DNA of 51,324 nucleotides, taken from assembly GCA_007693295.1 (NCBI GenBank), contig REDT01000197.1, positions 1-51,324 of the forward strand. Reading direction: 5' to 3'. The DNA is from Balneolaceae bacterium. Lineage in GTDB: Bacteria; Bacteroidota; Rhodothermia; Balneolales; Balneolaceae. The position numbers and the translations under genes are program-made. The notes below the pieces were generated by a model. It saw only the letters and a program-made list of their open reading frames with translations. It searched no databases and had not been told where the DNA came from. Of this stretch, positions 40,419 through 51,324 are shown in pieces (the first letter of the stretch is position 1; each line of letters opens with the position of its first letter).

Positions 40419-41711
40419 ATGATTGAGCGTTATTCGAGAAAAGAGATGACCGACATCTGGTCTGAACAGAACCATTTTCAAGCCTGGCTCGACGTTGAAC
40501 TTGCAGCCTGCAAGGCGTGGAGCAAAATCGGGAAAATTCCCGCAGAGGATGTTGAGAAACTCTATAAAAATGCGACTTTTGATATTGATCGCATTAAAGA
40601 GATTGAAATGGAAACCCGTCACGATGTAGTTGCCTTTACAAGGTCGGTCTCCGAATCGCTGGGCGAGGAGAAGAAATGGGTTCACTATGGACTTACTTCC
40701 ACAGATGTTGTGGATACGGCCAATGGTTGCCGGTTGAAACAGGCAAATGTACTTCTGAGAACCGGTCTTAATCGCTTTAATAAAGCCCTTGCTGAAAAAG
40801 CGCACGAGCACAAACTAACCGTGATGATGGGGCGCACGCATGGCGTGCACGCCGAACCTACAACTTTCGGCCTCAAATGTGCTCTTTGGTATGCTGAAAT
40901 GCAGCGTAACATGGACCGTTTTGAAAGAGCTGCAGCAGATGTCGAGTTTGGTAAACTATCAGGGGCGGTAGGAACTTTCGCTCATATTCCGCCCGAGGTT
41001 GAAAAAATAACCTGTGAGCTGCTCGGGCTAAGTCCGGCACCTGTTTCCACTCAAACCCTTCAGCGCGACAGGCACGCCTACTACATGGCTACCCTGGCGG
41101 TGATTGGCGGAACCCTGGAGAAGATCGCCGTGGAGATTCGCCATCTGCAGCGAACAGAGCTGCGTGAAGCCGAAGAGTTTTTCCGCAAAGGGCAGAAGGG
41201 TTCATCAGCCATGCCTCACAAGCGTAATCCAATCAGTTCCGAAAATATTACAGGGTGCGCCCGTGTATTGCGCGGATACATGGTTTCAGCCTATGAAAAT
41301 ATGCCTCTCTGGCACGAAAGAGATATCTCTCACTCATCCGTTGAACGAATTATACTTCCGGATGCCACCATACTTCTCGACTACATGCTCCATCGCTTTT
41401 CGAGTGTGATCGAAAAATTGATGGTATATCCTGAGAATATGAAAGAGAATATGGAGAAGACACACGGGCTGGTATTCTCACAGCGACTTCTTTTGATGCT
41501 CATTGAAAAAGGTTTATCAAGAGAAGCTGCCTACGACAGGGTTCAGCCGCTGGCGATGCAGGCGTGGGAAGAGAAAAGATCGTTTCGTGAGTTGGTTGAG
41601 GCAGATACTACCATCCGCGATAACCTTACGCCCGAAGAGATAGAGAGCGCATTCGATTTGAATTACCACACCCGCAGAGTGGATGAAATTTTTAGGCGAG
41701 CCGGCCTCTAA
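40419..41711 (+). CDS. purB: Adenylosuccinate lyase
   Basis: [58 protein letters not shown]. Confidence 0.96.
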
Positions 41712-41732: not shown

Positions 41733-41917
41733 GGTTGAAACCTGACAGCATTCCCGCGCTTTTTGCGGGTTTCTGTCAGCGTTGGCGAAAAGTCCACCGA
41801 CCCTGAATCGCGGATTTCGCCTATGCGCGATCCCAAAGCAACGCTGTTCCCCAAGGGATCCCTTCGGGGCAGTGGGTGTACCGCTAAAGCTGCACCTTCG
41901 GCTGACAGGTTTTGACC
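41733..41917. repeat. Highly structured intergenic palindromic element (MITE/REP-like or ncRNA candidate)
   Basis: Imperfect terminal inverted repeats GGTTGAAACCTGACAG/CTGACAGGTTTTGACC (13/16); internal pairs CCCGC/GCGGG, GCGTTG/CAACGC, GGCGAAA/TTTCGCC, ATCGCG/CGCGAT and CCCCAAGGGATCCCTTCGGGG. Confidence 0.5.
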
Positions 41918-42078: not shown

Positions 42079-42405
42079 ATGAATAATTCAGCTTTTAAGT
42101 CCGCCACTTCATTCAAGGCCGAGCCGCTTCTTTTCTCCATCTTTCATAAGGCGGAAGCCGAATATCTTCAAATAGAGCAGATGTTTGCCATGCTTGGCTG
42201 GGAAGAGTTGCCCAACGAAATCAAACTTAACATCGAAGAGGATGTTAAAGGGTATATTGATGAACTTCACGGAAACTATTCAACAAATTGCCCGCATATT
42301 CAGCGCAGGCGTGAAAGCGTTGATTTTTGGGTAAACAGTTATATCGACGGTGTGTGTACACTGGATACAGCGGCACAGGCTTTAAAGGTAAACGGCTTGA
42401 TTTGA
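42079..42405 (+). CDS. Hypothetical protein (108 aa)
   Basis: Coding-like composition (MFAMLGWEELPNEIKLNIEEDVKGYIDELHG...); no recognised family. Confidence 0.6.
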   Translation: MNNSAFKSATSFKAEPLLFSIFHKAEAEYLQIEQMFAMLGWEELPNEIKLNIEEDVKGYIDELHGNYSTNCPHIQRRRESVDFWVNSYIDGVCTLDTAAQALKVNGLI

Positions 42406-49963: not shown

Positions 49964-50857
49964 ATGGCTAACCTGCGCGATATACGAAACCGGATTTCAT
50001 CTATTGAGAATACTCAGCAGATTACAAAGGCCATGAAAATGGTTGCGGCTGCGAAATTGAGGAAAGCTCAGCAGAAAATGGTTGCTACCCGGCCCTATGC
50101 CAAAAAAATGCAAAGTGTTGTTGGCAGGCTGGTTTCCGGTGCAGGTACCGATAATATTGTTATGCGTCAGCCCGAAGAAACCAAAGCGGTACTGATGATT
50201 GTTGTTGGTTCAGACAAAGGGCTCTGCGGCGGATTCAACAACAATCTGTTCAAAGAGGTTGAAAAGTTCATAGCTGAAGAGCTCGACCGGTTCAATAAAG
50301 AAGGAACATTACACCTGATTACAATTGGAAGGAAAGCTGAAGCTTATTTTAAGAAACGAAACTATCACGTAGTTGACACAAATACCGGTTTTTTTGATAA
50401 TCTGAACTATGAGGATACTTCCGAGATTATGAGCGCGGCAATAGAGAAGTTTGCTGAAAGCACATATGATAAAGTTCTCATCGCATTTAATGAGTTTAAA
50501 ACGGTTATTACACAAAACAGGTTGATAGAAGAAGTTCTGCCGATTAATTCGCAAAAATTGGCAGAACTTGATGATAATAAAGATAATAATCAGGTTATTG
50601 ATTATATTTATGAGCCTGATGCACAAACAATTCTGGATGAGATTTTACCGGTTCATTTAAAAATGCAGTTGTGGCGGGCAGTGCTCGAATCGAATGCATC
50701 TGAGCAGGGAGCCAGAATGGCCGCAATGGATAATGCTACTGAAAATGCCAAAGAGCTCAGAGATGAGCTTAAATTGAAGTACAACCAGGCCCGGCAGAGT
50801 GCCATTACCACAGAAATTTCTGAGATTGTTTCCGGTGCAGCGGCATTGGAAGATTAA
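49964..50857 (+). CDS. atpG: F0F1 ATP synthase subunit gamma
   Basis: NLRDIRNRISSIENTQQITKAMKMVAAAKLRKAQ; SDKGLCGGFNNNLFK; ARQSAITTEISEIVSGAAAL. Confidence 0.97.
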   Translation: MANLRDIRNRISSIENTQQITKAMKMVAAAKLRKAQQKMVATRPYAKKMQSVVGRLVSGAGTDNIVMRQPEETKAVLMIVVGSDKGLCGGFNNNLFKEVEKFIAEELDRFNKEGTLHLITIGRKAEAYFKKRNYHVVDTNTGFFDNLNYEDTSEIMSAAIEKFAESTYDKVLIAFNEFKTVITQNRLIEEVLPINSQKLAELDDNKDNNQVIDYIYEPDAQTILDEILPVHLKMQLWRAVLESNASEQGARMAAMDNATENAKELRDELKLKYNQARQSAITTEISEIVSGAAALED

Positions 50858-50868
50858 TTGAGATGATA

Positions 50869-50923
50869 GTTATAACTTTTTGAAAGAAAAGGGTATCATC
50901 TGACAGACTGTTTTACGGAAACA
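50869..50923 (+). repeat. Direct repeat, left copy: remnant of a GIY-YIG gene 3' end plus downstream sequence
   Basis: Identical 55 nt to 51270-51324 (GTTATAACTTTTTGAAAGAAAAGGGTATCATCTGACAGACTGTTTTACGGAAACA). Confidence 0.95.
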
Positions 50924-50942
50924 TTTTCTATATACATATATA

Positions 50943-51029
50943 GGAGGGATGGCAGAGTGGTCGAATGCGGCGGTCTTGCCCCGTAGGGATCCCTTCGGGA
51001 AAAACCGCTGAGGCGCAAGTCTGCGGGGA
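50943..51029 (+). pseudogene. tRNA-Ser(TGA)-like sequence, interrupted in the anticodon loop and lacking the T-arm and 3' acceptor
   Basis: GGAGGGATGGCAGAGTGGTCGAATGCGGCGGTCTTG-[22 nt]-AAAACCGCTGAGGCGCAAGTCTGCGGGG, then AT-rich sequence with no TTCGAATCCC or TCCCTCC. Confidence 0.75.
50979..51000 (+). repeat. 22-nt near-palindromic insertion in the tRNA-Ser anticodon loop
   Basis: CCCCGTAGGGATCCCTTCGGGA sits between TTG and AAAACCGC of an otherwise normal anticodon arm; it contains CCCGTAGGGATCCCTTCGGG (palindromic apart from one T/T mismatch). Confidence 0.8.
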
Positions 51030-51061
51030 TTTAGTTCTTTTAATTTTTTGAAATTGACAGT

Positions 51062-51304
51062 TTGTATTATACGTATATACTGAAAAGTGAGATGAGTTAT
51101 TCTCACTACTATGGACATACAAGTGATCTGATTACCAGATTAAAGCGTCATAATGCAGGGAAAGTACGCAGTACAAAAGCATACAAACCCTGGAAGTTGA
51201 TCTACTCTGAAAAGTTTGCCACTAAATCGGAAGCTTATCAAAGAGAAAAATTTTTTAAAAGCATAGATGGTTATAACTTTTTGAAAGAAAAGGGTATCAT
51301 CTGA
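51062..51304 (+). CDS. GIY-YIG nuclease family protein
   Basis: YTYILKSEMSYSHYYGHTSDLITRLKRHNAGKVRSTKAYKPWKLIYSEKFATKSEAYQREKFFKS: GIY-YIG (YTY/YYG), conserved R and E; TTG start. Confidence 0.9.
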   Translation: MYYTYILKSEMSYSHYYGHTSDLITRLKRHNAGKVRSTKAYKPWKLIYSEKFATKSEAYQREKFFKSIDGYNFLKEKGII

Positions 51305-51324
51305 CAGACTGTTTTACGGAAACA
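51270..51324 (+). repeat. Direct repeat, right copy (GIY-YIG 3' end and downstream; runs to window edge)
   Basis: Identical 55 nt to 50869-50923, offset 401 bp. Confidence 0.95.

Follow-up and report, generated by a model that had tools for sequence, protein, structure and literature searches.

The closest described analogue, in behaviour, of the cassette presented here is SegB of the T4/T6 phages, a free-standing GIY-YIG homing endonuclease that is reported to cut inside tRNA genes and to drive the tandem amplification of the tRNA together with segB (PMC13096335). The motif given there for SegB, RAWTSGAAC (PMC13096335), would correspond, as read, to the T-loop GTTCSAWTY of the tRNA in reverse complement, and hairpins of the Ser type are found in that loop too. 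Both systems place a GIY-YIG nuclease next to tRNA genes and form tandem segments of tRNA plus nuclease, which in the cassette are seen as arrays. However, SegB is phage-borne, is reported to have no isotype preference, and is described in the sections consulted with no mention of hairpin-interrupted tRNA copies (PMC13096335), whereas the cassette family is chromosomal, consists of proteins of about 80-90 aa that track the tRNA isotype, lies nearer to UPF0213/Slx1, and does have such interrupted copies. Short single or double hairpins with conserved stems and variable loops are also found as mitochondrial double-hairpin elements and GC clusters, which are dispersed and considered mobile, and for GC clusters the help of an endonuclease has been proposed (PMC2800124, PMC4478555). 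The hairpins of the cassette differ in being bacterial and chromosomal, and in lying in the loops of tRNA copies beside a nuclease gene. With elements that integrate into tRNA genes the cassette shares an intact tRNA at one edge and a partial tRNA copy at the other, but its unit of about 300-450 bp carries the GIY-YIG gene alone and no integrase, and assignment to that group was therefore rejected. At the protein level, the likeness in both profile and fold is to single-domain GIY-YIG proteins of the UPF0213/YhbQ type (1ZG2, 1YWL) and to Slx1. Finally, Ssn of Neisseria is reportedly a small, sequence-specific GIY-YIG enzyme that cuts ssDNA at repeated sites and is tied to dispersed repeats; we know of no tRNA tethering or tRNA-derived arrays in that system.

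The window, that is the whole stretch of DNA analysed (51,324 nt), is the entire contig C229 of a draft genome, and the cassette lies at its right end, where the contig stops at 51324. All the features are on the plus strand. The ORF of atpG (F1 ATPase gamma, 49964-50857), which flanks the tRNA-Ser(TGA) locus on the left and is fixed in this position in the genus, is followed by the relic of a GIY-YIG gene (50865-50903), comprising the last codons up to the TGA and derived from a lost upstream unit, as the repeat and the congeners G001 and G021 indicate. A leader (50904-50942) within the repeated unit joins the end of the relic or gene to a copy of tRNA-Ser(TGA), of which nt 1-36 (50943-50978) match the intact gene of contig C81 at 100% identity. 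A 22-nt double hairpin, CCCCGTAGGGA-TCCCTTCGGGA, interrupts the anticodon loop (50979-51000), after which the copy resumes with nt 37-64 (51001-51028, 93%), its 3' end being absent. The nuclease gene follows (51062-51304, 80 aa, TTG start), recognised as an ORF with a Pfam match and the conserved residues. The initial annotation, made from the letters alone, had described the tRNA piece as a 5' portion; that portion is present, but so is the continuation beyond the insert.

The unit is bounded by a 59-nt direct repeat (50865-50923 and 51266-51324, 98% identity, spacing 401), which is far above chance expectation and whose 55-nt perfect core is the repeat noticed at the outset. The right copy overlaps the 3' end of the 80-aa ORF, and the left one consists of an ORF tail plus leader after the atpG stop; its interpretation as the remnant of the 3' end of a second nuclease gene holds, with equivalent relics in G001 and G021. 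In G001, a close relative (atpG 98%), the relic bears its own substitutions. The perfect 55-nt identity at the contig end looks like a repeat that halted the short-read assembly. A scan of the window found no intact tRNA within it. The initial annotation had placed an intact tRNA-Ser(TGA) just past 51324, and contig C81 (minus strand) opens with precisely this gene, followed by the genes that lie downstream of tRNA-Ser(TGA) in congeners. In congener G021, the succession of relic, tRNA copy, gene and intact tRNA-Ser is contained within one 104-kb contig. Rfam gave no match at 50700-51324; a group I intron homing gene in a tRNA was rejected as an identity for the element, as there was no Rfam match here or at 16 loci lacking a tRNA and the adjacent tRNA is intact. 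Folded as RNA or as single-stranded DNA, the tRNA copy of the window gave no clear signal beyond shuffles (z -0.93 for RNA).

That the unit amplifies, as had been suggested, is supported by tandem arrays in single-contig genomes, which contain 2-6 units of about 306-450 bp, each with the GIY-YIG gene as its sole gene. The arrays are of two types: in one, a tRNA is followed by repeats of the gene and the 3' part of the tRNA; in the other, to which the window belongs, repeats of the 5' part of the tRNA and the gene precede the tRNA. The cassette thus consists, as observed, of a tandemly repeated gene with partial copies of the adjacent tRNA, hairpins in the loops of these copies, and one intact tRNA at its edge. 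Among the 28 genomes of the genus atpG is present in 25, and wherever the downstream DNA is adequate it reaches tRNA-Ser(TGA) or a tRNA-Ser-like copy. At this locus the cassette is absent in 15 congeners and present in seven, upstream in five (G001 being counted here from its relic and the start of its tRNA-like part only) and downstream in two, while one further congener has a relic. The finding of one and the same tRNA locus empty or occupied among congeners suggests that the cassette may be mobile. No resistant allele was found in the resident intact tRNA-Ser, the sequence of which is identical to that of some congeners with an empty locus.

The 80-aa ORF matches the Pfam GIY-YIG family (1.2e-15), as initially assigned, and in the family alignment Y5, Y16, R26, H30 and E62 are invariant and G18 almost so (motif Y16-x-G18). 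The structure predicted for the protein (pLDDT 97.6) is a single-domain UPF0213-like fold; the profile match is 5.6e-15 to 1ZG2 (UPF0213) and E 0.063 to I-TevI, and Foldseek, with 1ZG2 and Slx1 as top matches, ranks them against homing enzymes in the same way. On sequence and predicted fold, then, UPF0213 and Slx1 are the closest relatives of known structure, rather than the I-TevI-like cluster of classical homing enzymes, and a closest kinship with the latter, which the initial assignment to a family that includes homing enzymes had left open, was set aside. Across species dN/dS is 0.04-0.12 where measurable, several comparisons having a saturated dS, which indicates purifying selection, while values of 0.18-0.77 among tandem copies indicate relaxation. 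Searches of NCBIfam and PHROGs with the window protein or unit returned zero matches, and PADLOC gave a marginal match only and no notable defence family. Collections of viral contigs, phages and plasmids contain few and distant matches, so this is not mainly a phage gene.

Genes of this family are neighbours of tRNA genes and have the same orientation, and each of their clades keeps to its isotype. Among 105 GIY-YIG domain hits examined in 59 related genomes, 72 have a tRNA gene within 800 bp, and in these relatives an intact tRNA mostly precedes the family gene by 50-85 bp. Most family members without a nearby intact tRNA have isotype-matched tRNA relics, and an Rfam search of the 16 loci lacking a tRNA returned nothing. 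One clade (L024, L055, L070 and L082) is without an adjacent tRNA, an Rfam match or a clear tRNA relic. As a control, 13 outgroup GIY-YIG genes of the relatives, which look UPF0213-like, had no tRNA nearby and no relic except one 13-nt match of chance length; in this they are unlike the cassette family. The profile of the family matches 193 of the 297 genomes of the phylum, with at most 18 matches each, a count that may include outgroup relatives. The window's genome itself has a second member (L117, G000:C23, positions 1-600) beside an intact tRNA-Asp, and this gene is flanked on both sides by degenerate tRNA-Asp copies with a palindrome.

The association extends to named genomes, where a profile of the Ser clade found 195 loci and the best 80 were retained. 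In these best 80 of 195, a tRNA lies within 600 bp at 69, and nine of the 11 loci without one sit at contig edges; the tRNA is a tRNA-Ser at 57 of the 69, the query being the Ser clade. These best 80 loci come from Balneolaceae, Cytophagales, Flavobacteriales, Ignavibacteria, Chlorobiota, Calditrichota, Neomarinimicrobiota, several candidate phyla, Verrucomicrobia, Lentisphaerae and Armatimonadetes, about ten phyla overall, although many are metagenome bins and isolated odd taxon assignments need caution. In a combined scan, every one of the 139 neighbouring tRNA genes within 600 bp runs in the direction of the nuclease gene, and many abut it. On a Calditrichota contig (L254, JAADJD010000037.1), interrupted Pro, His and Glu copies occur together in a single tRNA cluster close to a gene of the family. 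The expectation that homologous GIY-YIG genes would be found near tRNA pieces elsewhere is therefore supported in relatives and named genomes alike. Taken as a whole, the initial annotation was right on the unit, the relic, the intact tRNA and the tRNA association, and missed the hairpin in the anticodon loop, the tracking of isotype and the kinship with UPF0213/Slx1.

The isotype of the neighbouring tRNA follows the phylogeny of the protein. A maximum-likelihood tree of 89 proteins requires 20 changes of isotype label against 57.3 when the labels are shuffled, and one of 171 proteins and 12 isotypes requires 25 against 86, the protein being so short that deep forks are weak and many are unresolved in both trees. 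Inside a genus, vertical inheritance of loci can account for part of this tracking. The Ser clade, however, is found at tRNA genes with the anticodons TGA, CGA, GGA and GCT, and atpG is nearby at 7 of the best 80 named loci, so that one inherited locus is insufficient as an explanation. Clustering of the named loci by flanking genes gave one large component and was uninformative.

A further feature of the family is the interruption of the tRNA copies. Of 158 loci, 107 have interrupted copies, with 180 unique interruptions in total; by a simple position rule these fall in the anticodon arm (95), the T arm (53) and the D arm (32). In 115 of the 180 the stem reaches 5 bp or more, and the mean stem is 5.6 against 3.5 in shuffles. 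The Ser-type insert is made of two 11-nt mini-hairpins and also occurs in the tRNA T-loop. The stems of 34 distinct inserts of 22 nt, most of which come from tRNA-Ser copies, are 91% paired, compared with 73% after partner shuffling (maximum 78%); the stems of the double hairpin are kept by compensatory change. The same double hairpin is found at 33 sites in the window's genome, against 0 for a reversed-pattern control, and 12 of 42 dispersed double hairpins lie within a loop formed by a different palindrome, where swapped flanks give a mean of 2.8 and a maximum of 7. Double hairpins thus exist away from tRNAs, and their link with the nuclease is correlative. One of them, with a CCCCAAGGGATCCCTTCGGG core, lies in the window at 41848-41869, between a gene (40419-41711) and an ORF (42079-42405), in a dispersed repeat that has no tRNA link and whose flanking repeat is found on other contigs (L289, L303). 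Elsewhere, four hairpin-interrupted tRNA-Gly copies are spaced about 101 bp apart in a gene-free stretch upstream of an intact tRNA-Gly (L052, G003:C10, about 2413-2850), and a similar series of palindromes with 101-bp spacing is present at G003:C8:246270-246689.

The reading that we favour, and to which comparison of sequences gives a somewhat better than even chance, is that this tRNA-gene-tethered GIY-YIG cassette targets tRNA genes and drives its own local duplication or homing. The nuclease would recognise the gene of its own tRNA isotype, most likely in the loop regions that bear the hairpins, and the cut would be repaired from the tRNA copy that accompanies the nuclease gene. Such repair would insert the cassette next to an empty tRNA gene and expand it there. 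In surplus tRNA copies the hairpins would serve as marks and destroy the recognition site, and the intact tRNA copy would keep the host alive. As the resident tRNA-Ser is the same as in some empty congeners, a target consisting of dsDNA tRNA alone would mean that the carrier cuts itself, and cutting would have to be flank-dependent, limited to ssDNA or inefficient.

Owing to the UPF0213/Slx1-like fold, the main rival is that the enzyme guards tRNA attachment sites and is specific for single strands or for structure, which we regard as rather unlikely. The nuclease would here cut single-stranded or branched DNA carrying the tRNA sequence of its isotype, such as the attP of phages and integrative elements or the incoming ssDNA of transformation or conjugation; it would be kept for protecting tRNA loci, and the tRNA copies and hairpins would tune or block self-cleavage. 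In favour of a guard, Slx1, which together with UPF0213 is closest by fold and sequence, is a structure-specific nuclease, the gene is under purifying selection, the unmodified resident tRNA fits an enzyme that spares dsDNA, and the GIY-YIG family of Ssn is said to comprise ssDNA cutters. Arrays with decaying copies and the patchy occupancy of one congener locus look selfish instead, and no notable defence family was matched. A second rival makes the gene a passive cargo at tRNA edges, these being insertion hotspots at which it hitchhikes while arrays arise through slippage between tRNA copies, and makes the hairpins independent mobile repeats that favour hairpin loops. The abundance of double hairpins in the window's genome over the control and their frequency in the loops of other palindromes agree with this, but neither the tracking of isotype by clades, nor the invariant strand, nor the relic-free outgroup genes are predicted by it, and we consider it decidedly unlikely.

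Still less probable, and in our estimate highly improbable, is a system acting at the RNA level, in which the nuclease or its product would act on the tRNA and the interrupted copies would be decoy or regulatory RNAs. The shared strand would permit co-transcription with the tRNA, and isotype tracking would fit as well; on the other hand, the tRNA copies are frequently mere halves, the window copy folds as RNA no better than shuffles, and GIY-YIG enzymes are known to act as DNA nucleases. Lastly, a perfect 55-nt repeat right at a contig end could be taken for an artefact, present solely through the contig stopping in a repeat. The same tandem structure is found inside the long contig of G021 and in single-contig genomes, and the relic is common to G001, where it has its own substitutions, which brings the chance of an artefact close to negligible.

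Returning to a cassette that targets tRNA genes, its driver is most likely selfish persistence. All in all, the family looks like a widespread and hitherto undescribed kind of element, selfish or acting as a guard, for which tRNA genes serve as the address. More tentatively, and with a chance that we put rather below even, it may represent a new class of minimal mobile element, in which an isotype-specific nuclease of about 80-90 aa homes to tRNA genes in many phyla, builds arrays of target copies, and has its surplus copies disarmed by loop hairpins. In the literature searched, which covered few subscription papers, we found no account of a tie between these genes and tRNAs in bacterial chromosomes, and an earlier description is possible. 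If the reading as a tRNA-targeting cassette is true, many genes annotated only as 'GIY-YIG nuclease family protein' would have a readable target, namely the isotype of the adjacent tRNA, and together they would form a large set of small natural nucleases whose specificities could be predicted. Many of the tRNA relics and tandem repeats of Bacteroidota and other phyla would also be accounted for, and the tRNA-associated GIY-YIG enzymes would be joined with the putatively mobile double hairpins in a single system open to testing.
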